This document shows, piece by piece, positions 1 through 24,096 of a stretch of 64,000 nt of DNA; the first letter of the stretch is position 1; each line of letters starts with the position of its first letter. The stretch comes from Gammaproteobacteria bacterium (GTDB lineage: Bacteria; Pseudomonadota; Gammaproteobacteria; GCA-001735895), in assembly GCA_018669845.1 (NCBI GenBank), contig JABHSO010000212.1, forward strand, positions 1 to 64,000. The letters run 5' to 3'. A program made the position numbers and the translations under genes. The notes beneath the pieces are model-generated. The model was given only the letters and a program-made list of their open reading frames with translations, made no database searches and was not told where the DNA came from.

Positions 1-443
1 GGTACCACGGTGTATTCGGAAAATGTAGAGCAGCCCATGTAGTGATAAATAGGTGAACCATTCATTGAAAAGCGGCGGGTGTTATCCGGCATATAACCCG
101 TCCAGACTGTTGCCGCTATTGACTGACACAGGTTTGTTTTTGGTGAGCGACAATACTCACATTCACCACACTCTGGAATATACAGTGGAATCACATGGTC
201 ACCCGGTTTTAAATCTTTAACTCCTGGCCCACATTCAACAACCTCACAACCACCTTCATGGCCTAATACACAGGGAAAAGCACCCTCGGGATCATCTCCG
301 GACAGGGTAAAGGCATCGGTATGACAGACACCGGAAGCTACGACTTTTAATAGTACCTCTCCCTCCCTGGGTCCTTCTACATCGATCATTTCGATAGCGA
401 GTGGTTTTTTCGGCTCCCAGGCCACAGCTGCTTTTGCTTTCAT
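1..443 (-). CDS. adhC: Class III alcohol dehydrogenase / S-(hydroxymethyl)glutathione dehydrogenase, N-terminal part (truncated by window edge)
   Basis: Reverse complement from ATG at 443 reads [107 protein letters not shown]..., typical class III ADH; absent from ORF track because it runs off the window. Confidence 0.93.
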
Positions 444-622: not shown

Positions 623-1273
623 TTGTTCAAACTTGATTATTTATTGACCCGTATGCCCTATCTATCACGCCCCGAACCCGATCCGAAGCCAATGGATTGC
701 CGTATCCTGACTGCAGCACTTAAGTTGTTTGTCAACCAGGGGTATCACAATGTCTCGGTGCACGATGTACAGAAACAGGCTGATGTCAGTATTGGTTCAA
801 TCTATAAACATTTTGGTGGTAAGGAAGGTATGGCCAAAGCATTGCACGAACGTTTGCTGGTGGAAATGAATGAAATGGTCGATTCTGTTATTGCTCAGGA
901 TCTGACGATCATCGAACAATGCAACCGTATCATCGAGCTGCTATTCGAATACACCGAAACCCGCTGCGAAATCATCGCTTTTATCCTGCACGCCAATCAC
1001 ACAGAATTTATTTCAGATGAACCCCCGATCTGTTCAGCTGAACCGTTCCAGAAAATTCGTGACATGGTGCAGCGCGGTATGGATACCGGTGAAATTCAGG
1101 CTTATGACTGCTTGATAGCAGCTTCAGTCATTTTTGGTGGAGCATTCCGCCTGATCCATATGCGCCTCGATGGACTCATTGATCGACCACTGCCAGAGCT
1201 TTACGAGCAACTTATCGATGCGACCTGGAGGGGTATGAAAATCCAGGTTGAACCTGGTGTCTCCAACAAGTAA
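623..1273 (+). CDS. TetR/AcrR family transcriptional regulator (start may be ATG at 653)
   Basis: N-terminal HTH ALKLFVNQGYHNVSVHDVQKQADVSIGSIYKHFGGKEGMAKAL; divergent from adhC. Confidence 0.9.
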   Translation: MFKLDYLLTRMPYLSRPEPDPKPMDCRILTAALKLFVNQGYHNVSVHDVQKQADVSIGSIYKHFGGKEGMAKALHERLLVEMNEMVDSVIAQDLTIIEQCNRIIELLFEYTETRCEIIAFILHANHTEFISDEPPICSAEPFQKIRDMVQRGMDTGEIQAYDCLIAASVIFGGAFRLIHMRLDGLIDRPLPELYEQLIDATWRGMKIQVEPGVSNK

Positions 1274-1429: not shown

Positions 1430-1550
1430 TTAATCTTTATTTACTGTATAGTCGCAACAATATTCAGCTGAAAATCTGAACAATACAGATATACAGCGAA
1501 ATAAAAAGCTGGCTGCAAAGACAGTCATATGATCCCGGGGAGCATAAATA

Positions 1551-2465
1551 ATGAATGAAGCAGTTGCTGAAGCAAATATAGCCAATATTACCTGGAAAAC
1601 TTATCTAGCTTTATGTAAACCAAAGGTAGTTTTACTGATTGTCTTTACTGCAGTTGTCGGAATGCTGCTAGCTTCTGCTGCTAACCCACCCTGGGCCACT
1701 GTCTTTTTTGCAATTTTTGGGATTGGTCTGGCAGCGGCAGCGGGTGCTGCAGCCAACCACTGGGTAGATCGGAGAATAGATGCCATTATGGCGCGTACCC
1801 AAAGCCGACCATTACCGCAACACCAGATTTCCCCGATATCAGTTATCGGCTTTTCACTACTGCTAGCTACCCTGTCAATGGTAATGCTTGTCACACAGGT
1901 CAATTTGTTAACTGCACTGCTCACTTTTATATCGATGATCGGTTATGCGATTATCTATACCGTATTCCTTAAACCGGCTACGCCCTACAATATCGTTTTG
2001 GGTGGTGCAGCCGGGGCTACACCACCGCTGCTAGGCTGGACTGCGGTCACTGGAGAAGTGCACACCGAGGGGCTACTGTTATTTCTGATCATATTCATCT
2101 GGACCCCTCCGCATTTCTGGGCACTAGCTATAAAACGCAGGGAAGAATACGCCAGAGCCGAGGTGCCGATGCTGCCGGTTACCCATGGAGTTGCATTCAC
2201 CAAGTTACAAATCCTTTTCTATACAGTGATGCTGGTGATAATCAGTGTACTGCCTTTCACCATCCAGATGAGTGGTATCATTTATCTGTCTGGAGCCCTG
2301 TCTCTGGGCATCGGGTTTCTTTGGCATGCGATTCGGCTTTTCAGGGAAGACGGAGACAGCCATGCTGGACCAACCTTTGGATACTCAATATTTTACCTCA
2401 GCATGCTGTTCGGGTTTTTACTTCTTGACCACTATGCAAGAATAATTATCCGTTTGTGGCTGTAA
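1551..2465 (+). CDS. cyoE: Heme O synthase (protoheme IX farnesyltransferase)
   Basis: UbiA-type prenyltransferase membrane protein; LCKPKVVLLIVFTAVVGMLLA and WTPPHFWALAIKRREEYARAEVPMLPVTHG signatures. Confidence 0.95.
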   Translation: MNEAVAEANIANITWKTYLALCKPKVVLLIVFTAVVGMLLASAANPPWATVFFAIFGIGLAAAAGAAANHWVDRRIDAIMARTQSRPLPQHQISPISVIGFSLLLATLSMVMLVTQVNLLTALLTFISMIGYAIIYTVFLKPATPYNIVLGGAAGATPPLLGWTAVTGEVHTEGLLLFLIIFIWTPPHFWALAIKRREEYARAEVPMLPVTHGVAFTKLQILFYTVMLVIISVLPFTIQMSGIIYLSGALSLGIGFLWHAIRLFREDGDSHAGPTFGYSIFYLSMLFGFLLLDHYARIIIRLWL

Positions 2466-2477
2466 TCAAATATAACG

Positions 2478-4838
2478 TTGATTAGCTCTAGTCAAATGGA
2501 TTGTAAGCTCTGCGGCCTTCCAGCTACGCCAGAATTGCAACAGGACGATCACGTATTTTGCTGTATAGGTTGCCGGGAAGTATACAGGCATTTTGGCTCT
2601 ATCACCTTGCCCGGACCGAGCTCAGCAAATAGTGAAACTAAAATTGAACCGGAAGGAAATGAGGCTTACCTACGAATCGATGGAATGCATTGTTCTTCAT
2701 GTGAATTATTGATCGAAAGGCACTCTCTTCAGGTTAAAGGTATTGTCGCTGCAAAAACCAACTATGCTACTGCCACCACAAAAATCATCTATAATCCAGA
2801 GCAGATTGACGAATCTGATTTACCAGAACTGATCAGCCGCTCCGGCTACCATGCCCGCTTCAGTCAGGACAAGGCTCCCGATTACGACTATCGCATGCCA
2901 ATGCTGCGCCTGGTGACTGCCGAAAGCCTGGCAGCGACAATTATGATGATGTATCTGGCCTTCTACTACCCGGTCCATCTTGGCTTGATTGATATTGCTG
3001 AACTGGAACCAGTCCATTGGCTGGTTCACAAGGCTGTACCGATGGTACTGCTTTTTCTTACCAGCATTCTAATTTTCTATGTTGCATTACCTATTTTTCG
3101 AGGTGCCTGGATCGGTCTTCGTACCGGTGTGTTGAATATGGATAACTTATTAGCAATCGCCATTCTTGCGGCTTATGGATTCAGTATTGGGCAGATGATC
3201 ATCGGTACGCTTGAACTATATTTCGACGTTGCTGCCACGATTATTGCCGTGGTGACAATTGGCCGCTATTTAGAACGCGAAGCCAAGGAAAAAGCCACAG
3301 AAGCCCTTGCTAGTATTATGGATGCATGGATACCTTTTGCACGAGTCCGCAGGGATGGAAATCTGCACATGCTATCGATCGATGAACTACATCCAGCAGA
3401 GCACATCTTTGTTTACCAGGGAGAAATGATCCCGGCAGACGGTATAATTGTCGAAGGGCAGTGTGCAGTGGATGAATCGCTTATGACTGGTGAGCCATTC
3501 CCTGTTACCCGCAATGTTGGTGACCGCATCCTGGGTGGCACCCGCAACGTCGAAGGCACAGTTGAAGTCGAGGTTGGACATGTCGTCGCAAGTCAGCTCG
3601 ACAATCTGGCTCGCGTATTATGGAATGCACAAAGTTCTACAGCTGGTACACTTGGTATGGGTGACAGGGTGGCACGCCTGTTTGTTCCCACGGTGCTGAT
3701 TCTGGCACTTGGAGTTAGTTTCTGGTTATACAGCGGAGGTGCCTCTCTCGGCACCGCACTGCTCGCGGGTATGGCTACGCTGATAGTCTCCTGCCCCTGT
3801 ACTTTTGGTTTAGCTATCCCTCTGACCTCTGCAGTGGGGGTCAGTGTTGCTCTGAAGAAAGGTATCATCATCGCCAGTGCCGATGCATTTGAAAAAGCCC
3901 GGCAGATTCATACGATTGCAATCGACAAGACCGGTATTTTATCAACTGCGAACATGTCCGTCAGCAATGTGGTCGGGCCACCTGAAGTCATCGAATATGC
4001 TGCTGCGGTTGAAAGGCTATCACCACATCCGATTGCCGAAGCCATTGCCCGACTTAATTCGCGATACGAGGCAAAAGATATCAAAAACTATCCCGGAAAA
4101 GGGGCCGTAGCACAAGTTGAGAACCATTCTGTCGCGGTTGGCAGTAAATCACTTTTTACCATACTGGGGTGGGAAATTCCGAAAACGCCAATCACACCCG
4201 ATCCAGAACAGGCTGTGAAATCCTATGTAGGCTGGGATGGAAAGATTTACGGCGTGATAACCACCGAGGATCAACCCCGGCCGGGCTGGAGCCAGGTGGT
4301 TGACAGGCTGCGTAAGCAGGCTCATGTAGTTTTACTGACCGGTGCAGAAACGGCTGGATCATTCGGAGAAAAATTTGATGATGTTTTTACCGGTATACCA
4401 CCTGAAGGTAAAGCCTCGGTGATCAGGCAGTTAAAAACTAAGGGGGTTGTCGTGATGATTGGTGATGGCAGCAATGATGCTCCTTCACTCGCAGAAGCTG
4501 ATCTCGGTATCGCATTCGGGGCACCGACCGCATTGGCTGCCGATGCAGCCGATGTGATCATTCCCGGTGACAGGCTGGATTGCATCTTTGTGACCTTTGA
4601 GATACTTCAGTCAATCCGGCTCAGGATTAGGCAAAACCTGGTGTGGGCACTGCTGTATAATGCCATCGCTATTCCGATTGCTGTCTCGGGCATGCTCAAT
4701 CCCCTTTTTGCAGCACTGGCAATGTCTTCCAGCAGTTTGTTAGTAATCTGGAATTCATCCAGGCAACTCGTTCCTGATGAGACACCAGATACTCTGGAAG
4801 ATCAGCACACTGCCCTCCAGAATGTGAGTCACATTTAA
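2478..4838 (+). CDS. Heavy-metal (Cu-type) translocating P-type ATPase, FixI/CcoI/CopA-like
   Basis: N-terminal Cys-rich CKLCG...CCIGCREVYRHFG, HMA MHCSSCE, CPC (VSCPCTFGLAIP), SPHP, GDGSNDAPSL; phosphorylation loop reads DKTGI. Start TTG 2478 or ATG 2496. Confidence 0.92.
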   Translation: MISSSQMDCKLCGLPATPELQQDDHVFCCIGCREVYRHFGSITLPGPSSANSETKIEPEGNEAYLRIDGMHCSSCELLIERHSLQVKGIVAAKTNYATATTKIIYNPEQIDESDLPELISRSGYHARFSQDKAPDYDYRMPMLRLVTAESLAATIMMMYLAFYYPVHLGLIDIAELEPVHWLVHKAVPMVLLFLTSILIFYVALPIFRGAWIGLRTGVLNMDNLLAIAILAAYGFSIGQMIIGTLELYFDVAATIIAVVTIGRYLEREAKEKATEALASIMDAWIPFARVRRDGNLHMLSIDELHPAEHIFVYQGEMIPADGIIVEGQCAVDESLMTGEPFPVTRNVGDRILGGTRNVEGTVEVEVGHVVASQLDNLARVLWNAQSSTAGTLGMGDRVARLFVPTVLILALGVSFWLYSGGASLGTALLAGMATLIVSCPCTFGLAIPLTSAVGVSVALKKGIIIASADAFEKARQIHTIAIDKTGILSTANMSVSNVVGPPEVIEYAAAVERLSPHPIAEAIARLNSRYEAKDIKNYPGKGAVAQVENHSVAVGSKSLFTILGWEIPKTPITPDPEQAVKSYVGWDGKIYGVITTEDQPRPGWSQVVDRLRKQAHVVLLTGAETAGSFGEKFDDVFTGIPPEGKASVIRQLKTKGVVVMIGDGSNDAPSLAEADLGIAFGAPTALAADAADVIIPGDRLDCIFVTFEILQSIRLRIRQNLVWALLYNAIAIPIAVSGMLNPLFAALAMSSSSLLVIWNSSRQLVPDETPDTLEDQHTALQNVSHI

Positions 4839-5357: not shown

Positions 5358-5391
5358 TCAACTATTAGAAAAAATGAAGAGGAAATTCTAC

Positions 5392-6074: not shown

Positions 6075-7139
6075 ATGAATGATCTGAAAAGTATAGGGTA
6101 TAGCGACTGGTTTAAGAGTCGGTCGGATGATGAAAAAATGGCCGCTCATGGTGTTGCCCGGGTAGTTTCTGTACATAAAGACAGCTACACAGTCACAAAA
6201 GGTGGAGATGAGATATTTGCTGAATTATCAGGAAATCTTCTCTATTCTACAGAGTCGGCTAGTGACCTTCCTACCACTGGTGATTGGGTATATGCTGATT
6301 TTTACGATGATGAAACCCATGCAATTATATATGGCGTTTTCCCAAGAAAGACACTTCTAAAGAGAAAGGCGGCTGGTAAATTAGTGGACTTTCAACTGAT
6401 AGCAGCAAATATTGACGTTGCTTTCATTATTCAATCTTTAAATGATAATTTGAATTTACGAAGGTTGGAACGCTATTTAGTTATGGTTAATGAAAGTGAG
6501 ATTATACCTTTTATCCTACTGAGTAAGTGCGATCTTATAGCCAATGATAAGCTCGCTGAGATTAAGAAAAAGATTTTGGATATTGCACCTCAAGCTACGG
6601 TGATGGAGTTTAGTAATTTAAACCGAGAAAATATTGATTCCATTTTTGGCTTATTAAAAAGTGGATCTTCCTATTGCTTAATAGGTTCATCAGGTGTGGG
6701 CAAAACGACCCTGCTAAATAACATACTAGGTAATAATCATTTTGAAACCCAGTCCGTTAGTAAAATACAAAGTAAAGGTCGACATACAACAACAAGCCGT
6801 CAATTAGTTCGATTAGAAAGTGGCGCAATGATAATAGATACTCCAGGAATGAGAGAGCTTGGTAATATTTCAGTCAATGATGGCTTAGATGAAACTTTTT
6901 CTGAAATACTTGAGCTTTCTCAGAACTGTAAGTTTAATAACTGCTCCCATAGCAATGAAAAAGGCTGTGCAATTTTGGATTCCATCAAGTCGGGTGAGCT
7001 GTCAGAACAACGCTATAAAAACTACCTGAAAATGAAGAAAGAATCAGACTTCAATCAAATGAGCTATGTAGAAAAAAGAAAGAAGGATAAGAGCTTCGCA
7101 AAGCTGGTGAAATCGGCGGTTCAGAAAAAAAAGAGATAA
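6075..7139 (+). CDS. rsgA: Ribosome small subunit-dependent GTPase (RsgA/YjeQ family)
   Basis: Circularly permuted GTPase: LSKCDLI, GSSGVGKTTLLN, DTPGMREL, Zn-binding CKFNNCSHSNEKGC. Confidence 0.92.
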   Translation: MNDLKSIGYSDWFKSRSDDEKMAAHGVARVVSVHKDSYTVTKGGDEIFAELSGNLLYSTESASDLPTTGDWVYADFYDDETHAIIYGVFPRKTLLKRKAAGKLVDFQLIAANIDVAFIIQSLNDNLNLRRLERYLVMVNESEIIPFILLSKCDLIANDKLAEIKKKILDIAPQATVMEFSNLNRENIDSIFGLLKSGSSYCLIGSSGVGKTTLLNNILGNNHFETQSVSKIQSKGRHTTTSRQLVRLESGAMIIDTPGMRELGNISVNDGLDETFSEILELSQNCKFNNCSHSNEKGCAILDSIKSGELSEQRYKNYLKMKKESDFNQMSYVEKRKKDKSFAKLVKSAVQKKKR

Positions 7140-7164
7140 TGCTCCTATCAATACATTAATAATT

Positions 7165-7187
7165 AGGAGCTATAAAGCATAGCTCCT
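7165..7187. terminator. Hairpin AGGAGCTAT-N5-ATAGCTCCT downstream of rsgA-like gene
   Basis: Perfect 9-bp inverted repeat; weak T-tract. Confidence 0.5.
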
Positions 7188-7407
7188 TCATTACTTTGTT
7201 TTACGGCCAATATTATTTCATTAAAAGGCTCTACTGGATCACCTGCTGATGGTTATAGCTATGCTCAGTTTTGTTGTGTTGTTTTTCGTTAGAATCTCTT
7301 AGCTAATTATTGATTGCTCATATATTATCGGTTTCACAAGTAATTTGAGTTCTAACCAAATTGTAAATTAATTTTTTCTATCAAAAATAAAGGACAGGGA
7401 CATAAGT

Positions 7408-9378: not shown

Positions 9379-9434
9379 TGATTTTGCTTTCAGCATTACT
9401 TTTGTCTAAACCGATAAGTATCAAGTATTAAATT

Positions 9435-10214
9435 ATGTTTAAAAATAATAAATTATTAATTGCTTTGGTTGTATTTATTGTATGGGTTTTGATTACTTTT
9501 ATTGGGATCATACTTCAAGTTAATGGGGCGTTAGGGCTTGATAAGCTGGTTACTCAAGGTGTTGTGTTTGCCTTTGTTGCGGCATCTGCTTTGCTTTTAT
9601 TTTTTGTAATCTATTCAAAATGGGAAAATATTGGTTTTAATTGGCCAGCCTCTAAAAAAAGTTGGCTATTGCTGTGGTTACCATTGATTTATGTTTTTGC
9701 TTTTATGGCAGGTGCTTTAAGCAATGAGTTACCCAGTAATGACATAATTTTTCTGATCCTTTTTAATACTATGCTGGTAGGCTTTTCTGAAGAAGTGATG
9801 TTTAGAGGGGTTCTATTACAAGGGGCTTTATCTCGATTTTCTATCTGGCCGGCTATTATATTTGTTTCTGTTGCCTTTGGCATGGTTCACTCACTTAACG
9901 CTTTTATAACAGGTGAGGTCACGTCTGCCATTATTCAATCTGTCGCAGCCTTCATGACTGGTTTTTACTTTATGGCAATTCGTGTGCGTTCCGGTTCGCT
10001 AATTCCAGGTATATTGCTACATTGGTTTTATGATTTTTCAATCTTTATGATGGTTTATAAAGAAGCGGGTGCTTCTAAACTTGTAGAGCAAACACCTCAG
10101 CTAGATACTTTGCCTCAAATATTGCCCATATTAATGGTTATTCCTTTATTTCTTTATGGATTTTACTTATTGCGAAATGTTAAACAAGATATTAATGGCA
10201 TTAAAAGTCAATGA
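9435..10214 (+). CDS. CPBP family intramembrane glutamic endopeptidase
   Basis: GFSEEVMFRGVLLQGAL (EExxxR) and FGMVHSLN motif; multiple TM segments. Confidence 0.88.
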   Translation: MFKNNKLLIALVVFIVWVLITFIGIILQVNGALGLDKLVTQGVVFAFVAASALLLFFVIYSKWENIGFNWPASKKSWLLLWLPLIYVFAFMAGALSNELPSNDIIFLILFNTMLVGFSEEVMFRGVLLQGALSRFSIWPAIIFVSVAFGMVHSLNAFITGEVTSAIIQSVAAFMTGFYFMAIRVRSGSLIPGILLHWFYDFSIFMMVYKEAGASKLVEQTPQLDTLPQILPILMVIPLFLYGFYLLRNVKQDINGIKSQ

Positions 10215-12664
10215 AGAAAATAGTGTTTTTTACTTTGTTGTCATGGCAATCAATAACTTGGGTTTGTAGCCTTTTTTTTCTATTCTTGCTTCCTGTGCAG
10301 GCTCAGCAGTTAGCAACTGATACTCCAGATCAAATTATAGAATTAAAAGAAATCCAAATTATTCAGCCAGCGGATATATTGGCAATATCAGAAAAGGATC
10401 ATTCCAGACTTATTAACCTTCAGCAACAAATGCTATCTGATTCCGATATCAATCAGCTTAAATCCAATGCTGATGTCATCATAAAAAAATGGAACAAAAT
10501 TGCAGCTGAGCAGGGCATTAAAAATCCTGAGCGTCTCAGTTTTCAAGCCCAAAAAAACTACTCGATTCAATTATCAAAACTACAAAAAGATTACGTTGAA
10601 TTTAAAAAAATAGTTGTACATAACTCTTCAGTGGTGCAAAAAGATAGAGATGTATTGCGTGATATGCGCATAATCTGGCAAGAAACCTCCAAACAGTCTG
10701 ATACCTTAGACATAGCAGAGACTATGAAAAGCAGGATTAAGGATATGATCAAGGAGATCAAATCTCTGGATGAAGAGGAAAGTAATAAAATAAATACGTT
10801 ACTTCACTTGCATAAAACAATTTCAAAAAGTGAAGAGAAAGTGATTTCATTGTTGACCCTTTATAAGGAATTGAATAAGAATAAAAATGAAAGTGTTTTT
10901 AATCAAAATATGGCCCCTCTATGGCAAGGGTTTAAAGTTTCAGAAGAAATTGACGGTATTGTAAATTCAATCCAACTTTCTAAACAGAATAACCTGCAGT
11001 CAATCAAGGATTTTTATTTTTCTCAAAAGCCAAGAATAAGTTTTGATGCTTTGTTTCTGATAGCTCTACTCTTAGTAATGCACTGGTTACGACAGTATCG
11101 TGAAGAATGGAGTAAAGACGACTCTCTTGCTGCAGCTGTTCATGTGTTATCTCGACCAATTGCCTCTGCAATATTGATTTTAATTATTACTGCAATGCTA
11201 ATTTTTGGTGAAACACCTCCCATTATTGAATGGATGATTGGTTTAGTGATTGCCCTGATATCCGTACGAATTCTCTATGGTCTTTTGCCTGAAGTTTTTC
11301 GTAGACCGTTAATAGTGATAGCCCTGCTATACACTTTGCTCGATATACCCGCGCTCATACTCGATAATATTTTACTGGAGCGTTTAATTGTTTTTGTGCT
11401 GACAGTTCTTGCCCTAAGTTACCTTTTGTATGAAAAGTATATTGCACAAATTTCATCCTCTGAATTATTCTTGCAGAAGCGTTTTTTATATTTCATTATC
11501 CACATTGTGATGGCGTTATTAGCACTATCACTACTGAGTAATTTAAGTGGGTTTTATGACCTTTCTAAATTACTTACCTATGGTATTATTCATAGCGTGT
11601 TTGTTGGTGTTTTATTTTTTTCAAGTTTGTTGGTGATTCAAAGTATTCTAACTTTGCTTTTAAGAACGCGTTCAATCAGCGCTCTTAAAAGTGTTAGGAC
11701 ACATAGAGATATCATTCAAAATAGGATTGTTAAAATACTTCGATTGATAACGGGGCTTGTATGGGTTGTTATTGTTTTAAATGAGTTTCATATTGCGACA
11801 GCTACCTTTTCCTTTATTGGTAGTATTCTGAGCCAACATCTTATTGTTGGTAGTATTGATATCTCCCTGGCAGATATTGTTTTATTTGTACTCACTTTGT
11901 GGATTTCTATCTGGATTTCACGTTTTGTAAATTTTCTTTTGGAAGAAGAAATTTATTATCATGTCAGGCTTCCTCGTGGTGTGCCGTCTACTATTTCAAT
12001 GCTCACTCGTTATACCATCATTGGTATTGGTTTAATGTTTGCATTTTCTGTAGCAAGTATAGAGCTTTCTAAATTTGCCATATTAGCTGGTGCATTAGGC
12101 GTTGGTATTGGTTTTGGATTACAAAATATCGTTAATAACTTTGTATCAGGTTTAATACTAGCATTTGAGAGACCGATTCAAAGTGGTGATACGATTCAAA
12201 CGGGAACTCTATATGGGCAGGTAAAGCGCATAGGTTTTCGCTCAAGTACCGTAAGAACATTCGAAGGGGCAGAAGTTATAGTTCCTAATGCCAATTTAGT
12301 ATCTACTGAGGTTACTAATTGGACATTGTCTGATCAACTAAGACGTATTGAAATTCCGATTGGGGTTGAATATGGCACTGACCCTGAACGGGTAATAGAG
12401 CTTTTAGTGGAAACTGCTAAAAATGAAAATCAGGTTATATCAAAACCTGAGCCTCATGCTTTATTTCTTAATCACGGGGACAGTTCTCTGGATTTTTTAC
12501 TGCGATTCTGGATCAGTGAATTTAATGACTGGGCTTTTATACGTAGCAGAGTGAATATTGCTATAAACAAAGCTTTAGTCGCAGATGGTATAGGAATACC
12601 CTTTCCTCAACGAGATATCAACTTGAAAGCTGATATAGAGACGTTATTATCTAAAACGGATTAA
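10211..12664 (+). CDS. Mechanosensitive ion channel family protein (MscS/MscK-like)
   Basis: Signal peptide, coiled-coil periplasmic region, C-terminal MscS domain GALGVGIGFGLQNIVNNFVSGLILAFERPIQSGDTIQ. Confidence 0.92.
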   Translation: MKKIVFFTLLSWQSITWVCSLFFLFLLPVQAQQLATDTPDQIIELKEIQIIQPADILAISEKDHSRLINLQQQMLSDSDINQLKSNADVIIKKWNKIAAEQGIKNPERLSFQAQKNYSIQLSKLQKDYVEFKKIVVHNSSVVQKDRDVLRDMRIIWQETSKQSDTLDIAETMKSRIKDMIKEIKSLDEEESNKINTLLHLHKTISKSEEKVISLLTLYKELNKNKNESVFNQNMAPLWQGFKVSEEIDGIVNSIQLSKQNNLQSIKDFYFSQKPRISFDALFLIALLLVMHWLRQYREEWSKDDSLAAAVHVLSRPIASAILILIITAMLIFGETPPIIEWMIGLVIALISVRILYGLLPEVFRRPLIVIALLYTLLDIPALILDNILLERLIVFVLTVLALSYLLYEKYIAQISSSELFLQKRFLYFIIHIVMALLALSLLSNLSGFYDLSKLLTYGIIHSVFVGVLFFSSLLVIQSILTLLLRTRSISALKSVRTHRDIIQNRIVKILRLITGLVWVVIVLNEFHIATATFSFIGSILSQHLIVGSIDISLADIVLFVLTLWISIWISRFVNFLLEEEIYYHVRLPRGVPSTISMLTRYTIIGIGLMFAFSVASIELSKFAILAGALGVGIGFGLQNIVNNFVSGLILAFERPIQSGDTIQTGTLYGQVKRIGFRSSTVRTFEGAEVIVPNANLVSTEVTNWTLSDQLRRIEIPIGVEYGTDPERVIELLVETAKNENQVISKPEPHALFLNHGDSSLDFLLRFWISEFNDWAFIRSRVNIAINKALVADGIGIPFPQRDINLKADIETLLSKTD

Positions 12665-12922
12665 CTTATATTGAATTTTTATATTATGGAGAAACTTAAT
12701 AAAAAATAAAATCATACCTGAGATTAGATGTTGCAGAGTGGCATGACAACTTTATCTATTGGGGTCTTTATTATTCACTAAGTATTAGTCGAGTAAGCGC
12801 CATTTTGGATCATTGATTAGTTACTCTATGAATGAGAAAATAATTCGGCATTTCACAATATTACGTATGTAACAAAGCACGATTTTTGTACGTGTTACGT
12901 AATCACCTGTTAGGCAAAAAAA

Positions 12923-13342
12923 ATGGCAATAAATTATAAAGACATAGAACTAGCCTTCGATTTTGTTAATTTCGGTCAGCCCTATGAACATGAAGCATAT
13001 TTAAATCTTTACACTGGCGAAACCTATTGGCATTCGGAAATTGGAGACAATGAGGAAGAGTTACCAGATGATATTGATGATGAAACAAAATATATTCCTC
13101 TACCGCACAAAAATGATTTAAACCTGGATAAAAAACTTGTTCTTAAGTTTGCATATCAATACCTACCGGACGATGCAGAAAAAGTAGAAAATATTTTCGG
13201 ACACAAAGGGGCATATTCCAGGTTCAAAGATATCTTAGAAACTAAAGGTAAAGTTGAAGAATGGTATGAATATGAAAGTAAAGCAGCTGAAAAAGCATTA
13301 CGTGAGTGGTGTAAAATAAATGAAATCAAAATTAATGGCTAA
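12923..13342 (+). CDS. UPF0158 family protein
   Basis: IELAFDFVNFGQPYEHEAYLNLYTGETYWHSE... LPDDAEKVENIFGHKGAYSRFKDILE...WYEYE...ALREWCKINEI. Confidence 0.75.
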   Translation: MAINYKDIELAFDFVNFGQPYEHEAYLNLYTGETYWHSEIGDNEEELPDDIDDETKYIPLPHKNDLNLDKKLVLKFAYQYLPDDAEKVENIFGHKGAYSRFKDILETKGKVEEWYEYESKAAEKALREWCKINEIKING

Positions 13343-13353
13343 CAAAAATAAGA

Positions 13354-13857
13354 ATGAGCATTGAACAAGAAATTGCAGCATGGGATGGAAAGTCATCTGA
13401 CGATATTGCTGTTATGTATGAATCTCATTCCAAGGAGTCATCTTTTTCTGATGAAATTGTAAAATTTATAAAAAATACGTCATATCAAAAAGCTGCGACC
13501 TGGTTATTAAAATATTATTTAGAATCGGGAAATCATCTTGAAAAAACTAAAATAAAATCAATCTACAACTTTTTGCTAGAGATTGAAAACTGGGAGACAA
13601 AATTACATATACTGCAAAGTATTCCTTTCATGCCAATATCAAAAAATGAAATAAAAACAGTTGAAGCCTTTCTCAGGGTTTCATTAACTGATTCTAATAA
13701 ATTTATTAGGGCATGGGCGTATAATGGTTTTTATGAAATGGCAATACAATATCCAGAATATAAGAATGAAACAAAACAGTTTTTTGAGATGGCAATGAGA
13801 GATGAAGCAGCATCCGTCAAAGCCAGAATTCGCAACATAATTAAAAAAGATTTCTAA
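13354..13857 (+). CDS. Hypothetical protein, HEAT-like helical
   Basis: 167 aa ORF, helical repeat character, no recognised family. Confidence 0.6.
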   Translation: MSIEQEIAAWDGKSSDDIAVMYESHSKESSFSDEIVKFIKNTSYQKAATWLLKYYLESGNHLEKTKIKSIYNFLLEIENWETKLHILQSIPFMPISKNEIKTVEAFLRVSLTDSNKFIRAWAYNGFYEMAIQYPEYKNETKQFFEMAMRDEAASVKARIRNIIKKDF

Positions 13858-13929
13858 CAATTAAAATACACTCAAAATAGCAATAGTAAATTTTAGAATA
13901 TCTCGTTTTAAAAGTGAAAAAGACAAAAT

Positions 13930-14175
13930 ATGATCGAAAGATACCTTATCAATTACGAACAGGAATTAAAATGGATTGCTCTTGTTTTAGGCATTATAAG
14001 TACAATTGCCATAGTACAAAACTGGTACCCGTTTACAATGTTTGTAAGTCTACCGTTTTGCCTTATCTGGGTATGTTACGCATGGCTGCATACTGAGCGT
14101 CAACTAAAATATATTAATATTATATTTTCCATCCTATACATATATGGGATCATTCGTTACATACTTATTGAGTAA
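13930..14175 (+). CDS. Small membrane protein (2-3 TM), hypothetical
   Basis: 81 aa hydrophobic ORF; preferred over overlapping 13914..14096. Confidence 0.6.
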   Translation: MIERYLINYEQELKWIALVLGIISTIAIVQNWYPFTMFVSLPFCLIWVCYAWLHTERQLKYINIIFSILYIYGIIRYILIE

Positions 14176-14375
14176 GAACAGTGTCACTTTCAAAGATCTG
14201 GATATTGCTCTCGAACGATTGAATACATCCAGGTGTAGAAATATTTACTCCCTGTAGTCAATAGATGAATAATTTATATCTGATTGCAGGCTTAATCTCA
14301 TTAAAGTTGATAGTGCAATACAAAATTCTCCAGCTATAATTCTGGCCATTCAATTTCTAATGAAACAAATAGATA

Positions 14376-14744
14376 ATGGCTAAACTTATTTTTAAACTTA
14401 AATCAGTGTCTTTTGACGAAGCCGATGATATAAAAAATCTGCTAACCGAAAATAAAATAGATTTTTACGAGTCACCTGCTGGCAACTGGGAGATATCCCT
14501 TCACGGGCTTTGGTTAAATGATGAGTCTCAATGCATTCAGGCAAAACAACTAATAGATGAATATCAGCTTAAAAGAGGCCAGCGAATAAGGTTGGAAACT
14601 CAGCAGAAAATTGATAAAGGTGAGTTTGAAACATTTTTTCAGCGACTATTAAACAGGCCTGCTCAGTTTATTTTTCTTCTAGCTATTATTCTTTTTATAC
14701 TTTATTTATCTATCATGCCTTTTCTCAAAATTGGTCAGGCATAA
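14376..14744 (+). CDS. Hypothetical protein with C-terminal TM segment (DUF6164-like)
   Basis: MAKLIFKLKSVSFDEADDIKNLLTENKIDFYESPAGNWEISLHGLWL...FIFLLAIILFILYLS. Confidence 0.65.
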   Translation: MAKLIFKLKSVSFDEADDIKNLLTENKIDFYESPAGNWEISLHGLWLNDESQCIQAKQLIDEYQLKRGQRIRLETQQKIDKGEFETFFQRLLNRPAQFIFLLAIILFILYLSIMPFLKIGQA

Positions 14745-14948
14745 AAGTCCAGTTTTCATCTGCCAGGCGGCGAGCAGTCCATCCATTGGTTGCGTCACAA
14801 ACCGGTAGAAAATTACAGTATGTCAGAAAGGGCCAGTATGGATCGACAGCAGGCTTCAAGGACTTTTAAAATTTGACTGAATTGTACCAACATTGTCAAC
14901 TCTAGTTATTCTGGGTCTTATAGTTAGTTGCTGTTAAACTGATTAACC

Positions 14949-15278
14949 ATGGGTAGAGTCGATCGGGAAAAGAAAACTATTGATGTCATGGTGAGAATCT
15001 ACTGCCATGACCATCACAAGACATCCGATGATCTATGTGCTGACTGTCTCACTTTACAGGATTATGCTCACAGCCGCCTGGATGCCTGTCCCTTCGATGA
15101 TGAAAAACCAGCCTGTAATAAATGTGCTGTACACTGTTATTCTTCTAAAATGCGGGAGCAGGTAAGAAAGATAATGCGTTACTCCGGCCCACGCATGATA
15201 TTAAAACACCCACTATTGTCGCTATTGCACTTGCTTGATCTTATAGGAGAAGCGCCACAACTTAAGAAACGCCGTTGA
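14949..15278 (+). CDS. ygbA: YgbA-like nitrous oxide-stimulated promoter family protein
   Basis: MVRIYCHDHHKTSDDLCADCLTLQDYAHSRLDACPFDDEKPACNKCAVHCYSSKMREQVRKIMRYSGPRMILKHPLLSLLHLLD. Confidence 0.88.
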   Translation: MGRVDREKKTIDVMVRIYCHDHHKTSDDLCADCLTLQDYAHSRLDACPFDDEKPACNKCAVHCYSSKMREQVRKIMRYSGPRMILKHPLLSLLHLLDLIGEAPQLKKRR

Positions 15279-15446
15279 AAGGAGTAATGTCAAACAGACA
15301 AAAATGTTTGGATTATAGTTACCCATAAACGGCTGCTTTAAGTTGAAGAACCTATTGAGGGAAGCCTCCCAATTGGCGAGTTAATGCCAGTTGGTGTCAT
15401 TCATAGCTTGTAAATTGATTAATAAATAGGGTGATAGCTGTAACAA

Positions 15447-16076
15447 CTATTGTATTAGTACCATTAATTGCCACCCAGCAAACCCGAGCAAGAAGATTCC
15501 CGCTGTCCGGCTAATCCATTTCAGAGTATCTGAATTTATTTTATGCTTGATTAGTGTTACCACTGCTACCAGGCTTAGCCACCAAACTACTGAACCTAAA
15601 AAGACTCCTAATACCATGATTCCTGCTGAACCTGTATCTAAGCTCATATTGCCACCCATAGATGCAAATACAGCAATAAATGAAAGGATTGTTATCGGGT
15701 TTGCTATGGTCAGTAAAAATGTAGACACAAATGATACCAGTGCATTATTTGAAAGCACTTCCTGAGTTACCTGGTTTTGATTATCAGATCTTAAGAATTT
15801 TACTCCCAGCCATATCAAAAAAATTATTCCAAATATAGCCAGGGGTTTTGCTGCAGATGTCAGGACATGGGTTAATGCTGTTAAACTAAATGCACCAATT
15901 GCACCATAAATGGCATCTGCTGTTGCTGCTCCAAATCCAGAAGCTAAGCCTGATTTTGAACCTTGAATTAAGGTGCGCTGAATACAGATTAGACCAATAG
16001 GACCGACAGGAGCGGCTATGGCAAAACCAACAAAAATTGCCTTACTGAATAGTAAATAATCCATAACAAGTACCAT
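15447..16076 (-). CDS. LysE/RhtB family translocator
   Basis: AAPVGPIGLICIQRTLIQGSKSGLASGFGAATADAIYG...; likely start ATG at 16064. Confidence 0.9.
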   Translation of the reverse strand: MVLVMDYLLFSKAIFVGFAIAAPVGPIGLICIQRTLIQGSKSGLASGFGAATADAIYGAIGAFSLTALTHVLTSAAKPLAIFGIIFLIWLGVKFLRSDNQNQVTQEVLSNNALVSFVSTFLLTIANPITILSFIAVFASMGGNMSLDTGSAGIMVLGVFLGSVVWWLSLVAVVTLIKHKINSDTLKWISRTAGIFLLGFAGWQLMVLIQ

Positions 16077-16199
16077 TTATTTATCTTAAGTAGTAGGCAA
16101 TATTTTGATAAACAATCATGCTGTATTAAATGGATTAAACTATGTGTTTTAAATAAAATACCTTAATATTTAAGGCGCAAACTTAAAAATGGTTAAAAA

Positions 16200-16655
16200 A
16201 TGAATATTGATGCTATTTCATGGAAAATATTACGTACTTTACAGTCAAAAGGCCGAATTTCGATAAAAGCTCTTGCTGGTAAAATTGATCTTTCGATACC
16301 AGCTACATCAGAACGGCTTAAGCGATTAGAAGAAACAAAAGTTATTGAAGGTTATAAAGCTGTTATCTCTCTTCCTGCTGTTGGGTACCAGGTAATGGCC
16401 GTAATAGGAATGACAACGCCTAAGCCTGACAAAGAAAGATTGGTGAAAATATTAAATAAAATGCCAGAGGTAATTGAGTGCCTTCATGTGACAGGTCAGG
16501 ACTCATATCTTCTTAGAGTTGTATCAAAAGATATAAATCACCTGGAAAAATTTATTGAATCTATAAACAAGTACGGAGAAACAAGAACTTCCATCGTTAT
16601 GTCACAACCCATTCCTTTAAGATCAGTTGATGCGATTGATAATTCAATTTTATAG
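16200..16655 (+). CDS. Lrp/AsnC family transcriptional regulator
   Basis: IDAISWKILRTLQSKGRISIKALAGKIDLSIPATSERLKRLEETKVIEGYKAVI; divergent from LysE-type exporter. Confidence 0.93.
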   Translation: MNIDAISWKILRTLQSKGRISIKALAGKIDLSIPATSERLKRLEETKVIEGYKAVISLPAVGYQVMAVIGMTTPKPDKERLVKILNKMPEVIECLHVTGQDSYLLRVVSKDINHLEKFIESINKYGETRTSIVMSQPIPLRSVDAIDNSIL

Positions 16656-16821
16656 CTTATGCAGGGAGTAGGTGAATATTACAGAAGTGTGACAGGCAAA
16701 TACGTTTTACTTCTGTGGATGGGATTTATCCTGACCCTGATGAGCAACGATTCCGGAAGATCATTCAAATAACAAATATCAACCGGAATGGTCACTCATG
16801 AAAGGCCAGAATATTTAAAAG

Positions 16822-18321
16822 CTAATAATCAATTGCTTTGGACCTGATCAGGCTAAGGAAGTACAGCACAAAAGCATATAACATCATCATGCCAAAGATA
16901 AATATAAATGCTCCATAGATAAACCAGTCGCCTTCCCAGTCTCCGTTTCTGCGGGGCATACCGGCAGCACCAGCTGCCATAAAGCTATAAAACAGGCCCA
17001 GATAAGAAATGAACAGATATTTAATACTTGACCTCGCCAGGCTATCGTCAATAGTACGGTTAGTCATTAGAGGATAATGGTAATAAAGCATACCCATCCA
17101 CAATGCACTGATTGCTATCAGCACCACCATGGCATGCCCACCAGCCCACATTGTGCCGTGTAATTTAAAATTCCACGCAACATTACTGATCACAATCGCT
17201 GAGACTCCATCCAGGATATACATGACAAAACCACCTAAAATTAAAAATAATGCAGGTGTTGCAATAATACCGTGCTTCCAGATCGTTGCCAGAATGGTAA
17301 ATATCGTCAGGGCAGCACCAACTGCTGTGGCATAACTCATGATATTTCCATGATACGCAAAGGTAGAAGGCAGAGCTGGATACATGGTGTAAAAGTGATG
17401 GAAGAATGACGTCAACGAAGTGATTAGTAAAATCCACAAGGCAGTCATTGCAATTTTATCACTGTATAACTTGCGGGCACCGTCAGCCAGGCAAAGCGGC
17501 AAGGTCGAGTACACGGCTCCAATAATCATAATGGCCATGGCTTCCATTAGATTATGCGCGAAGATATAGAAAACAAATTCAAACACCACAGGATCCGCAG
17601 CCCAGCCAATCCATGATGCCGGAAAAATTCCATACAAATGCAGCAGCAAAGAACCCGCAACAATCATTAATGGTGTTCCAGTCACAAGCAGAACCATGAC
17701 ACCCATGATCATGCCGACCATTCCCGGGTCCTTCAACGTGCGCTCTGCAACCTGCAGGGTGTCGTCTGTTTTCTCAAAAAATGACATTCTGAGAATTTTG
17801 ATTGGATAAATAAAAATCATCGAGGTAAGCACTAAAGCAATACCACTAAATCCAAGCACCAGGGTAGCCATACTCCACTGGCCATTGCCAACGCCAACTA
17901 CGGGTAATGGAAACATGACTGTGTAAGTCACATGAAATCCAGATAATACGGCGAGGGTAAGCAACAATGCACCTACATTCATGAATATATAAAAAAGCGA
18001 AACAAACAGGTCATCGGCTCTTTTACCTAAACAGGCCCCCGCCCTGTGCAGACTCATGGCAACCATTAGCTGAAATGCAAATGGAAATGCCATAGCAGCG
18101 CCATGCAGTGTTATATTTTTATAATACCAGTTAGCCCCTAAATCAAGGAACTGGATTGCTGGCATGGATACACCCAAAACGGCGGCAATGGCAAACCAGA
18201 CAAAGGCTGTCATTGCCATCAGCGCTGGCCATGCATTAACTGGATTTAGCTCATTATCCTCAACTTTAAACATGCCCCCAAAAAAAGGGACTTTCTCTAT
18301 AATATTTATTGCAGCTGACAT
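16822..18321 (-). CDS. Heme-copper oxidase superfamily subunit I, NO reductase-like active site
   Basis: ~12 TM; helix II ITLHGAAM; helix VI YIFAHNLMEAM (H-x-x-x-E instead of HPxxY); helix VII SFFHHFYTMYPALP; helix X LHGTMWAGGHAMV. Confidence 0.88.
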   Translation of the reverse strand: MSAAINIIEKVPFFGGMFKVEDNELNPVNAWPALMAMTAFVWFAIAAVLGVSMPAIQFLDLGANWYYKNITLHGAAMAFPFAFQLMVAMSLHRAGACLGKRADDLFVSLFYIFMNVGALLLTLAVLSGFHVTYTVMFPLPVVGVGNGQWSMATLVLGFSGIALVLTSMIFIYPIKILRMSFFEKTDDTLQVAERTLKDPGMVGMIMGVMVLLVTGTPLMIVAGSLLLHLYGIFPASWIGWAADPVVFEFVFYIFAHNLMEAMAIMIIGAVYSTLPLCLADGARKLYSDKIAMTALWILLITSLTSFFHHFYTMYPALPSTFAYHGNIMSYATAVGAALTIFTILATIWKHGIIATPALFLILGGFVMYILDGVSAIVISNVAWNFKLHGTMWAGGHAMVVLIAISALWMGMLYYHYPLMTNRTIDDSLARSSIKYLFISYLGLFYSFMAAGAAGMPRRNGDWEGDWFIYGAFIFIFGMMMLYAFVLYFLSLIRSKAIDY

Positions 18322-18348: not shown

Positions 18349-18903
18349 TTAAAGTACAGTTAAAGTGTTTTTCATTGCGTGGTGCGCTATCCCGCAATAC
18401 TCAAGGCAACGGACCGTGTATTCCCCTGGTTCCGTAAAGGTATGCACCACAGCACTCTCTGTACCTGCTCCAGGTACTAGCATCATCGTAAATAACTGAC
18501 TGCCATCCGGGTGAAACAGGGCAAAACTATGCACAGTGTCTACACTTTTTGCCTGGAACCGAACTGTCTGACCGACCTTGTATTCCATTTCACTGAATTC
18601 AAAAGACCATGAACGAGCTGTAACGCTCACATTCTTCACATCCTGTGAGGTTGATGCATTAGCCTCTACTATCGTTGGCATGTATTCAATACTGGCAGCA
18701 TTGAGTACGATAAAAGCAACCACTACAAAAGCTATCCAGCCATATCTGGAATAAGAATATTTTTCTGGATCGGTTTTGCTGGGCTCTGAATCCACAAATG
18801 CCTTTTTATTGACGACATGAAAAAAGACTAAAAGAAAAGGAATTTGGAACATCAATAGAGCTATGAATGCTCCCCAAGCGTTTGTATATAAAAATTCAAT
18901 CAT
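18349..18903 (-). CDS. Heme-copper oxidase subunit II with CuA cupredoxin domain
   Basis: Membrane anchor + cupredoxin; DTVHSFALF and complete CuA motif CLEYCGIAHHAM. Confidence 0.9.
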   Translation of the reverse strand: MIEFLYTNAWGAFIALLMFQIPFLLVFFHVVNKKAFVDSEPSKTDPEKYSYSRYGWIAFVVVAFIVLNAASIEYMPTIVEANASTSQDVKNVSVTARSWSFEFSEMEYKVGQTVRFQAKSVDTVHSFALFHPDGSQLFTMMLVPGAGTESAVVHTFTEPGEYTVRCLEYCGIAHHAMKNTLTVL

Positions 18904-18926: not shown

Positions 18927-19535
18927 TTAATAAACCTGATTTTTGTAACTTAATTTGGATGCCCTTGAAGCTATATAGGCATTTAACTGTGGCGAAAACT
19001 CATCATAAGGCTCCAGTCCCAGACCTCGTATTTGAGTTCGAACCTCCTCCAGTTCAGTTGAATCAGTTCCAGACTCAACAATTGAGGAAACAAATCCAGC
19101 GAACTGTATTGGTGGCCAGCCGTCATCTTTTGATAGCTCCAGGTGAATAAAATCAAGGCCATAAAAATGGTGACTCTCATCCTCTACACGACCAAACATA
19201 TGGGTACCGCACTCACTACAGACATGACGTTGAATTGGCACGTTTTCATCAAGAATTTTGAGTTTGTCGGCATTTTTAATCACACTGAGCTTATCGCGCG
19301 GTACAACTGCTACCTGGGAAAACAAAGCACCCTCTGGCTTCCAGCACTGGGTACAGCCGCAGAGATGATTGTGTGCGGCCTGTGCAGTAATTTTTATAAC
19401 CACCGGATTCTTTTCGCACTTGCAAGAAAGAGTCCCTCCCGGTTTTGGCCTGTTGTTGATATAACCCCAAATACTTCTTGTAACCGGGTTTGTTTTAATT
19501 CCCGCGTCAACTGCAGGATGAATCGATTTTTTCAT
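18927..19535 (-). CDS. gfa: S-(hydroxymethyl)glutathione synthase (glutathione-dependent formaldehyde-activating enzyme)
   Basis: LSCKCEKNPVVIKITAQAAHNHLCGCTQCWKPEGALFSQVAVVPRDKLSV...RHVCSECGTHMFGRVEDESHHFYGLDFIHLEL. Confidence 0.92.
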   Translation of the reverse strand: MKKSIHPAVDAGIKTNPVTRSIWGYINNRPKPGGTLSCKCEKNPVVIKITAQAAHNHLCGCTQCWKPEGALFSQVAVVPRDKLSVIKNADKLKILDENVPIQRHVCSECGTHMFGRVEDESHHFYGLDFIHLELSKDDGWPPIQFAGFVSSIVESGTDSTELEEVRTQIRGLGLEPYDEFSPQLNAYIASRASKLSYKNQVY

Positions 19536-21299: not shown

Positions 21300-23306
21300 A
21301 TGAAAAATAACAACATAACTATAAAATCTAAGGGCATTGGTATGTATTTACAAGTTAAGGCTATTTCGGCCTTACTCATCTATTTAATTCTGGGCTTTTT
21401 TATTTCCGCCCCTGTCGTTGCTGAATCAGGCTCAAGTTCGTCTGTACATAAAGCATTTAAATCTATTCCCAGTAAAAAATGTAATAAATGTCATGATGAT
21501 GAAGACGATACTACATGGGAATATGATGAAGGACCTTTAGCGGGTACTGAAAAAAATATCTATGTGCCTTCTGAAATTATTGAAAACAGTGTGCATGGCG
21601 AGCTAAATTGTAATGACTGTCACACCAATGTTTCTCTAAAAAGAAAGGAGCATGCTGAGTACACCCCCATCACAGTCAGTTGTATCCAGTGTCACAAGAA
21701 AAAAATAGAAGCGCAAAAAGATGACCCTGATCCAGAGTTGAAGCGGTTAAAGGTTGTTATGGAGCAAGTCGATAGCTATATGCATTCGGTGCATGCACAA
21801 CCCAGTATAAAGGATCAGTCTAAAACCAATGCCAGCTGTTATGACTGTCATGAAGCTCATAATATTGGCACGCTTGGAAGTGAAGCCCGCGCTGAATACC
21901 GTCTTAAAAATCCTGAAGTCTGTGGACAATGTCATGAAGAGCAAAAACAGGCATATGTGAGTTCAATTCATGGTAAAGAAGTGCTGGAGAAGAAAAACAG
22001 CGAAGCAGCCGTTTGTTCTGATTGCCACACAGCGCATGATATTGCCGCAACAGAAGAAGGCAGCACAAAACTGAATATCACAAAAAATTGTGGAAGTTGT
22101 CATGAGAAATCACTGGAAACCTATCTGACGTCTTATCACGGTCAGGTCAGTCGCCTGGGTTATTCACACACTGCCAAGTGTTTCGATTGTCATGGTGGTC
22201 ACGAAATCACCAAAATAGATGATCCCAGCTCTCAAATTCATAAAGATAATCGACTGGAAACCTGTAATAAATGTCATCAGGATGCCACCGAAGGTTTCCT
22301 CAGTTTTAATGCACATGGTGATGCCAATAACTTTGAGGATTATCCAATTATCTATGTTACTAGCAAATTCATGCAGGCATTAATTATTGGTGTATTCCTG
22401 TTCTTCTGGACCCACGTTATTTTATGGGGTTATCGAGAGCTTAGAGATCGTCAGCAGGGTAAGGGCTATGTGCCTCCGCTGACAGAGGATACGGTATATT
22501 TCCGTCGTTTCTCCAGAACATGGCGTGTACTGCATCTATTATTTGCGGTGAGCACCATGATACTGGCATTGTCAGGTTCGACCTTATTGTTCTCTCACAC
22601 GGCCTGGGCACCCTTTATTATCGGCTTAATGGGCGGACCGGAAGTCGAGGCAATTATTCACCGGACAGCGGGTGTTACCTGGTTAAGTGTATTTGTCATT
22701 CACTTTGGTACAGCGATGTACAATATTGCAGCTAACTATAAATCATTCCGTTGGTTTGGCCCCACATCCATGGTTCCAAACTGGCAGGATCTACGAGATG
22801 TTATTGCCATGTTTAGCTGGTTCTTTGGCAAAAGTGAAAGACCAACTTTTGATCGTTGGTCCTATTGGCAGAAGTTTGATTACTGGGCTCCATTCTGGGG
22901 TGCTGGCATCATAGGCTTTAGCGGTATTATGTTATTTGCGCCCACGGTTACGGCCGCTATTTTGCCGGGCTATGTATTTAATATTGCGACCATTATTCAC
23001 CAGGAAGAGGCATTACTCGCCACTATATTCCTGTTCACTGTGCATTTCTTTAATGCACATTTCAGGCCTGATAAATTCCCAATGAGTACCACTATATTTA
23101 CCGGTTCGATACCACTGGATGAGTTTAAACATGAGCATGAGCTTGAGTATGAGCGTCTAAAAGCCAGTGGTGAGCTGGAGAAACATTTGGTGAAGAAACC
23201 ATCAAGACTGGTTAGAACTGGTTCTAACATGCTGGGAATTTTACTAATTATGGCCGGACTGACACTGTTGACGCTGGTTATTATTGGTTACAGCAGTATG
23301 CATTAG
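21300..23306 (+). CDS. Multiheme cytochrome c (nine CxxCH) fused to membrane cytochrome b domain
   Basis: CNKCH, CNDCH, CIQCH, CYDCH, CGQCH, CSDCH, CGSCH, CFDCH, CNKCH followed by TM domain with HTAWAP, IHRTAGVTWLSVFVIHFG, HFFNAHF. Confidence 0.92.
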   Translation: MKNNNITIKSKGIGMYLQVKAISALLIYLILGFFISAPVVAESGSSSSVHKAFKSIPSKKCNKCHDDEDDTTWEYDEGPLAGTEKNIYVPSEIIENSVHGELNCNDCHTNVSLKRKEHAEYTPITVSCIQCHKKKIEAQKDDPDPELKRLKVVMEQVDSYMHSVHAQPSIKDQSKTNASCYDCHEAHNIGTLGSEARAEYRLKNPEVCGQCHEEQKQAYVSSIHGKEVLEKKNSEAAVCSDCHTAHDIAATEEGSTKLNITKNCGSCHEKSLETYLTSYHGQVSRLGYSHTAKCFDCHGGHEITKIDDPSSQIHKDNRLETCNKCHQDATEGFLSFNAHGDANNFEDYPIIYVTSKFMQALIIGVFLFFWTHVILWGYRELRDRQQGKGYVPPLTEDTVYFRRFSRTWRVLHLLFAVSTMILALSGSTLLFSHTAWAPFIIGLMGGPEVEAIIHRTAGVTWLSVFVIHFGTAMYNIAANYKSFRWFGPTSMVPNWQDLRDVIAMFSWFFGKSERPTFDRWSYWQKFDYWAPFWGAGIIGFSGIMLFAPTVTAAILPGYVFNIATIIHQEEALLATIFLFTVHFFNAHFRPDKFPMSTTIFTGSIPLDEFKHEHELEYERLKASGELEKHLVKKPSRLVRTGSNMLGILLIMAGLTLLTLVIIGYSSMH

Positions 23307-23370
23307 GATATCGATGAGATATGAATATTTATTTGAAAAATTACTGGATGTGAAATTGTTGGATATAAAA

Positions 23371-24096
23371 ATGAAATCCTTTTTTAACACTGTTGGCATG
23401 GTTTGTATGGCATTGGCTTTTAATGTTAATGCGGCCTCATTAGAAGATCTGGATGAAACTATCCAACAGGCAATAGCCGCTACACCCAATATTGAAAAAG
23501 GCAAAGAAATATATCGTAACTGTGCGTTATGTCATACGCCTGAAGGTTGGGGAACGCCTTCAGGGCATTACCCACAAATTGCAGGGCAGCATAAAAGTGT
23601 GATTATCAAGCAACTCGAGGATATTCAACTGGGTAACCGTGATAACCCGACTATGCGTCCTTTTACAGATCCGGTGATTGAGCTAGGAAGCCAGGCTGTC
23701 GCCGATGTTGCAGCCTACATCAGTCAGCTACCGATGACTCCAAAGAATGACATGGGTTATGGTTCAGAGTTAGATCGAGGAAAGACCCTGTACGATGATA
23801 ACTGTAAGCAATGCCATAAAGCTAATGGTGAAGGAAAGCCTGAAAAATTTTATCCCAAAATTCAGGGGCAACATTATAACTATTTGAAACGACAACTACT
23901 CTGGATAAAAACAGGTAAGCGAAGAAATGCAGATATTAAAATGGTAAAGCAGATGCGTGATTTTAGCCTTCAGGATATTGATTTAGTCTCAGACTACGTA
24001 TCCAGGTTAAGACCGGATAAATCATCGATGGCTAAAAGTATATTTTGGAAAAATCCTGATTTTAGATCGGGTTTCCGTGCAGCTCCAAGAAATTAA
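23371..24096 (+). CDS. Diheme cytochrome c (c4/c553-like)
   Basis: Signal peptide from MKSFFNTVGMVCMALAFNVNA; NCALCHTPEGWG and NCKQCHKANGEG. Confidence 0.9.
   Translation: MKSFFNTVGMVCMALAFNVNAASLEDLDETIQQAIAATPNIEKGKEIYRNCALCHTPEGWGTPSGHYPQIAGQHKSVIIKQLEDIQLGNRDNPTMRPFTDPVIELGSQAVADVAAYISQLPMTPKNDMGYGSELDRGKTLYDDNCKQCHKANGEGKPEKFYPKIQGQHYNYLKRQLLWIKTGKRRNADIKMVKQMRDFSLQDIDLVSDYVSRLRPDKSSMAKSIFWKNPDFRSGFRAAPRN

Follow-up and report, generated by a model that had tools for sequence, protein, structure and literature searches.

A heme-copper oxidase subunit I with glutamate at the tyrosine position and methionine at a low-spin-heme position: a candidate CuA-linked nitric oxide reductase

We analyzed a 64,000-nucleotide stretch of a Gammaproteobacteria bacterium genome (assembly GCA_018669845.1, contig JABHSO010000212.1; the window) and focused on its heme-copper oxidase (HCO) subunit I gene (16822..18321, minus strand), which lies 27 bp downstream of a subunit II gene and encodes a catalytic subunit of 499 aa. 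This subunit has lost the Tyr needed for O2 reduction, and Glu260 stands in its place. With a probability of roughly 0.6, we take the enzyme to be a two-subunit, CuA-dependent nitric oxide (NO) reductase (NOR), respiratory or detoxifying, whose low-spin heme is bound by His and Met and whose binuclear site contains a Glu. At somewhat less than even odds, it would represent a new CuA-linked NOR family that gained its cNOR-like Glu independently, on a scaffold like that of sNOR, and whose His/Met low-spin heme departs from the His sextet. Such an enzyme would probably convert NO to nitrous oxide, a greenhouse gas, by an as yet unstudied route.

Active-site and heme-ligand residues

Subunit I matched PF00115 (COX1) in Pfam with 136.6 bits (E 1.5e-39). 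In NCBIfam, CtaD/CoxA and others matched best but fell far under the curated cut-offs. The AlphaFold2 model had a mean pLDDT of 82 and a pTM of 0.85, and its top matches among solved structures were COX1 chains with a TM-score of about 0.8. A-type HCO structures were the closest solved folds, by sequence as well. The superfamily is defined by a His sextet (PMC3413370, PMC3475470), made up of two ligands of the low-spin heme, one of the high-spin heme and three of the B metal. Subunit I has five of the six, and by fold and homology it is a member despite the incomplete sextet. Its motifs FVFYIFAHNLMEAM, SFFHHFY and LHGTMWAGGHAM supplied the residues H256, E260, H308/H309, H388 and H396. We assigned helix II His73 to the low-spin heme, His396 to the high-spin heme and H256/H308/H309 to the B metal.

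An earlier note, made from the sequence alone, claimed that HPxxY is absent and a NOR-like H-x-x-x-E present. The alignments bear this out. Helix VI reads FAHNLMEAM (H256-N-L-M-E260). PDB-sequence, profile and MAFFT alignments alike matched H256 to the CuB His of HPEVY and E260 to its Tyr, which puts the Glu at the active-site position. Fifty-six homologues cover the motifs of helices VI, VII and X in full, and E260 (codon GAA, 17542..17544, minus strand) is invariant among them (56/56). The subunit I gene is under strong purifying selection (dN/dS about 0.03). Because of this selection and the invariance, Glu260 is not a chance substitution. We also checked whether another helix supplies the Tyr. 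At the helix VII column where four cbb3 sequences have Tyr, subunit I has Ser302, again invariant (56/56), which rules out a Tyr donated from helix VII as in cbb3. The alignment thus shows no Tyr at the helix VI or the helix VII position. All A-, B- and C-type O2 reductases of the comparison panel carry one, and in subunit I both known Tyr positions are vacant.

The earlier note also stated that the HH pair and the heme His are retained. This holds for the CuB pair, His396 and His73. The second low-spin-heme His is replaced by Met398 (codon ATG, 17128..17130, minus strand), so that the helix X motif HxH (high-spin, then low-spin heme ligand) has become HxM, a change that the note missed. M398 is invariant in 56/56 homologues, and the neighboring residue 397 varies (A/T/F/V). 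Seven other HCO groups supplied a comparison panel of 40 sequences; 39 of them have His in this column, and the remaining one, a Thermus eNOR, has Lys. On these alignments we regard the loss of the helix X low-spin-heme His as firm. An eNOR-type subunit I (HGAQQ) on a plasmid of Thermus thermophilus TF24 (L166:583-2268) has HFK, not HFH, in helix X; its low-spin His has thus been lost by a different route.

Met398 is likely to serve, together with His73, as a ligand of the low-spin heme. Helix X of subunit I has a one-residue deletion, and the position of the gap differs between alignments. It fell at the His in our first MAFFT run and in hhalign against eNOR. In a better-sampled MAFFT alignment, in hhalign against the A family and against sNOR, and in HMMER against PDB chains, M398 fell on the His and the gap came later. 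The HxH/HxM gap of the first run vanished once references were added. The deletion and the two alignments with the gap at the His would fit a helix X that is one residue short and a Met398 that does not bind heme, with the low-spin heme five-coordinate, absent or otherwise ligated. We consider this unlikely, since the better-sampled alignments place M398 on the His, residue 397 varies and M398 never does, and residues 391-420 form a single unbroken helix in the AlphaFold2 model. With Met in place of His at the low-spin heme throughout, the family would offer a naturally occurring variant in which to study how the potential of the heme governs the entry of electrons into the binuclear centre.

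Placement among NOR and oxidase families

We searched relatives, the class and the GTDB genome collection and found more than 50 family loci with 48-98% identity. The records are gamma-, alpha- and betaproteobacterial or belong to SAR324. Named members include Sulfuritalea, Rhodocyclales, Ideonella, Ca. Desulfobacillus denitrificans and a metagenome-assembled genome (MAG) from the eastern tropical North Pacific (ETNP). The family is rare, because 398 other sampled Pseudomonadota genomes yielded no additional member (E<=1e-20; up to three candidates scored per genome). A plasmid search returned no family member and only distant HCOs, of about 26% identity or less.

The reference tree contained A, B, C, cNOR, qNOR, eNOR and sNOR sequences, with Ruegeria (Silicibacter) pomeroyi as the named sNOR anchor; bNOR, gNOR and nNOR sequences stood outside the panel. 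The family formed one clade (support 100/100), whose long stem measures 1.45 changes per column. It fell outside sNOR, as its sister clade (99/97), and apart from the O2 reductases. By the approximately unbiased (AU) test, a joint clade with A-type oxidases was weakly rejected (p-AU 0.043), as was one with B and eNOR (p-AU 0.022). A joint clade with cNOR and qNOR was 17.7 log-likelihood units worse (p-AU 0.073), which is disfavored but short of rejection. The Glu of the family thus likely arose independently of that in cNOR/qNOR, in a tree with long branches.

The NOR families of Table A4 in PMC8756737 all lack the Tyr (see also PMC3475470). The residue in its place is E in cNOR and qNOR, N in sNOR and CuANor, Q in eNOR and D in gNOR. 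That table, which does not cover nNOR, has no entry for a CuA-type NOR with Glu. The earlier note had likened the enzyme to sNOR and eNOR rather than to an O2 reductase. The sister position to sNOR agrees with this; the Glu in place of Asn or Gln and the His-sextet ligand replaced by M398 do not. Since its Glu matches neither the Asn of sNOR nor the Gln of eNOR, the family belongs to neither group.

With sNOR (NorSY) the family shares the two-subunit makeup, the CuA subunit II, the loss of the helix VI Tyr and the three B-metal His. However, sNOR has Asn at H+4 (8/8 sNOR-side sequences; L024/L160) and keeps HxH in helix X, whereas the family has Glu and HxM, and the two profiles are 24% identical. 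In R. pomeroyi the sNOR operon includes genes for SCO and a formate/nitrite transporter; the family locus instead carries a copper ATPase and a heme o synthase. In addition to the placement outside the sNOR clade, membership in sNOR was rejected on the Glu found where Asn is expected. The CuA subunit II, the replaced Tyr and the three B-metal His are shared with eNOR too, but eNOR has Gln (HSSQQ) and groups with the B-type O2 reductases, and the Glu in place of Gln rejects membership there. For bNOR (CuANOR/qCuANOR), which is B-family-like (PMC3475470), the CuA subunit II and the lost Tyr are again common features. It has Asn at the Tyr position (PMC3475470) and not Glu, and was rejected as well.

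The Glu at H+4 is the likeness to cNOR and qNOR, E260 taking the position of the cNOR FeB-ligand Glu (HLWVE). These enzymes differ in having no CuA link (NorC or a fused domain instead), in branching with cbb3 and in keeping HxH; the family groups with sNOR and has a CuA subunit II. In gNOR, Asp is expected at the active-site position; Glu260 was found together with all three B-metal His, and gNOR membership was rejected. A change of a B-metal His to Asp has been reported for certain NOR types (PMC8756737 Table A4, PMC3475470). The A-type aa3/caa3 cytochrome c oxidases have the closest solved structures, but both HPEVY and HFH, which characterize them, are lost in the family.

The family may instead correspond to nNOR or a close branch of it, so that it would already be named though uncharacterized. 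The nNOR family was reportedly proposed by Murali et al. in 2024. It is a B-related non-canonical NOR (PMC11388526), and none of the papers that our searches turned up gives its active-site residues. According to PMC10359470, non-canonical nor genes, sought with hidden Markov models that include nNOR, were common in oxygen-deficient-zone MAGs, which were rich in Proteobacteria and SAR324. The present family likewise occurs in SAR324 and in oxygen-deficient-zone records. Against this identification stands the missing entry for a CuA-type NOR with Glu in Table A4, although nNOR itself lies outside that table. We judge the identity with nNOR to be possible but rather doubtful.

Evidence for and against NO reduction

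The subunit II gene (18349..18903, minus strand) encodes 184 aa with two transmembrane segments and the CuA ligands H125, C166, E168, C170, H174 and M177. The CuA site is complete at every family locus examined. In the proposed NO reductase, this CuA would be reduced by a periplasmic cytochrome c or cupredoxin. Electrons would then pass to the low-spin heme, held by His73 and putatively by Met398, and on to the binuclear centre of high-spin heme (His396) and B metal. The high-spin heme is probably o or b, because heme o synthase is present and no heme A synthase (CtaA) was seen at the locus. The B metal would be bound by His256, His308, His309 and possibly Glu260, and the copper ATPase at the locus suggests Cu rather than Fe. 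Glu260 would bind the metal and donate protons in the reaction 2 NO + 2 e- + 2 H+ -> N2O + H2O, like the Glu of cNOR; the Tyr that it replaces is the source of the fourth electron and proton in O2 splitting.

In favor of NO reduction we count the invariant Glu, the missing Tyr, a loss common to the tabulated NOR families, the sister position to sNOR and the complete CuA site. The host genomes point in the same direction. Domains of cd1 nitrite reductase (E<=1e-100) were present in 20/26 family genomes and 50/270 other genomes of the class (odds ratio 14.7, p=2e-9). Strict NirS was present in 16/26 and 29/270, respectively (p=1e-8). Both statistics ignore kinship among the 26 family genomes. 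The window's own genome carries a nirS cluster together with cNOR and an eNOR-type HCO, which we also took as favoring NO reduction. Several members are denitrifier or low-O2 records (Sulfuritalea, Ca. Desulfobacillus denitrificans, the ETNP MAG and SAR324), which supports NO reduction. We also counted in its favor a heavy-metal/copper P-type ATPase, seen at 41/51 loci at first look and at 42/42 scorable loci with the window counted. Class III alcohol dehydrogenase (ADH) is also an S-nitrosoglutathione (GSNO) reductase. Its family, which includes the GSNO reductases, is linked at 22/51 loci, and this was counted likewise.

Several observations weigh against NO reduction, beginning with the disregard of kinship in the nirS statistics. 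Five family genomes have neither nirS nor nirK above the limits used; the enzyme may serve in detoxification there. The subunit I gene lies outside the nir clusters, and in the window's genome it is on contig 106, whereas the nirS cluster, with cNOR and an eNOR-type HCO, is on contig 215. No FNR/DNR box conserved upstream of subunit II rose above shuffles. One site with one mismatch, ATGATAAATATCAA, lies upstream of the window's S-(hydroxymethyl)glutathione synthase (GFA) gene, with no evidence of conservation. The sister group sNOR is itself a proposed NO reductase, and in Nitrosomonas it may function as a high-affinity oxidase (PMC6967387). Finally, the adjoining formaldehyde genes, and methanethiol oxidase at some beta loci, suggest another context.

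Two of these points lead to other functions. The enzyme could be a high-affinity or otherwise unusual O2 reductase without the cross-linked Tyr, as suggested for Nitrosomonas sNOR, and in keeping with this sNOR is induced under O2 limitation (PMC6967387), the closest solved folds are A-type, and some family genomes have just one other HCO. We hold it improbable, in view of the Tyr missing from both helices, present in every panel O2 reductase, and the strong nirS association. It is more improbable still that the enzyme is a terminal reductase linked to one-carbon or methyl-sulfur metabolism (glutathione-dependent formaldehyde oxidation, methanethiol oxidase) whose substrate is not NO, or for which NO removal is secondary. 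GFA, class III ADH and S-formylglutathione hydrolase do recur at gamma-, beta- and alphaproteobacterial loci, and SBP56/methanethiol oxidase and SCO lie upstream at some beta loci. However, mapping the formaldehyde module onto the family tree takes 8 changes, and 12 scorable loci lack it, whereas the copper ATPase is always present. As a GSNO reductase, class III ADH would also fit NO stress.

The other HCOs of the window's genome are an A-type oxidase, two cbb3, a B-type, cNOR and the eNOR-type enzyme. With several HCOs present, cNOR and the eNOR-type among them, the family enzyme would not be the sole NO reductase. To family models the gene is no more than a weak match to cytochrome c oxidase subunit I. 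If the family does reduce NO, this activity and the resulting nitrous oxide could therefore go unnoticed in Sulfuritalea-type denitrifiers, in SAR324 and in bacteria of oxygen-deficient zones. As a second case of the catalytic Glu, the family would also test whether this residue suffices for an NO reductase.

Further HCO-like proteins were seen in these genomes. The eNOR-type HCO on contig 215 (L102, 50757-52118) has GHSSQQ, with a CuA subunit II and heme o synthase adjoining and nirS and cNOR on the contig. On the same contig, beside nirS, a 460-aa COX1-domain protein (L104, 44921-46150) seemingly lacks the helix VII HH pair and has no NCBIfam match; similar proteins occur on nirS contigs of other family genomes. 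Two qNOR-like proteins, L129 (genome of L059) and L148 (genome of L068, Sulfuritalea), have HN, not HH, in helix VII, and where cNOR has a second Glu they carry Gln. This combination matches the signature of putative NO dismutases as described in PMC3413370.

Gene neighborhood

The GFA gene (18927..19535, minus strand; TIGR02820 and NF003829 over cut-off) ends 23 bp before subunit II and heads an apparent operon with subunits II and I. The remaining genes of the locus lie at 1-4838, with about 12 kb of other genes before subunit I. They are a class III ADH/S-(hydroxymethyl)glutathione dehydrogenase of GSNO-reductase type (3..443, minus strand), a TetR-family regulator (623..1273, plus strand) kept in close relatives, a heme o synthase (CtaB/CyoE; 1551..2465, plus strand) orthologous to the CtaB of L047 and L052, and a copper-type P1B P-type ATPase (2478..4838, plus strand), presumably a copper-loading accessory. 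The ADH gene is cut by the window end and is 99% identical to the copy in the sister genome L047; TIGR02818 matched its L052 orthologue. The ATPase is 90% identical to the L047 copy, which adjoins subunit I. In L047, the copper ATPase, CtaB and the formaldehyde/GSNO genes are all close to subunits I and II. Across the family, heme o synthase was found at 33/51 loci, GFA at 19/51 and S-formylglutathione hydrolase at 17/51.

At L071:1026-3068 and similar beta loci, but only some, SBP56 (methanethiol-oxidase family) and SCO1/SenC lie a few kb upstream of subunit II. Between the two parts of the locus in the window (4839-16821) are genes for an RsgA-like GTPase, an M13-like peptidase, a CAAX protease, an MscS channel, LysE, Lrp and others. 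Beyond GFA, at 21300-24096, a multiheme c-type cytochrome is fused to a cytochrome b561-like membrane domain, and a protein containing two CXXCH motifs comes next.
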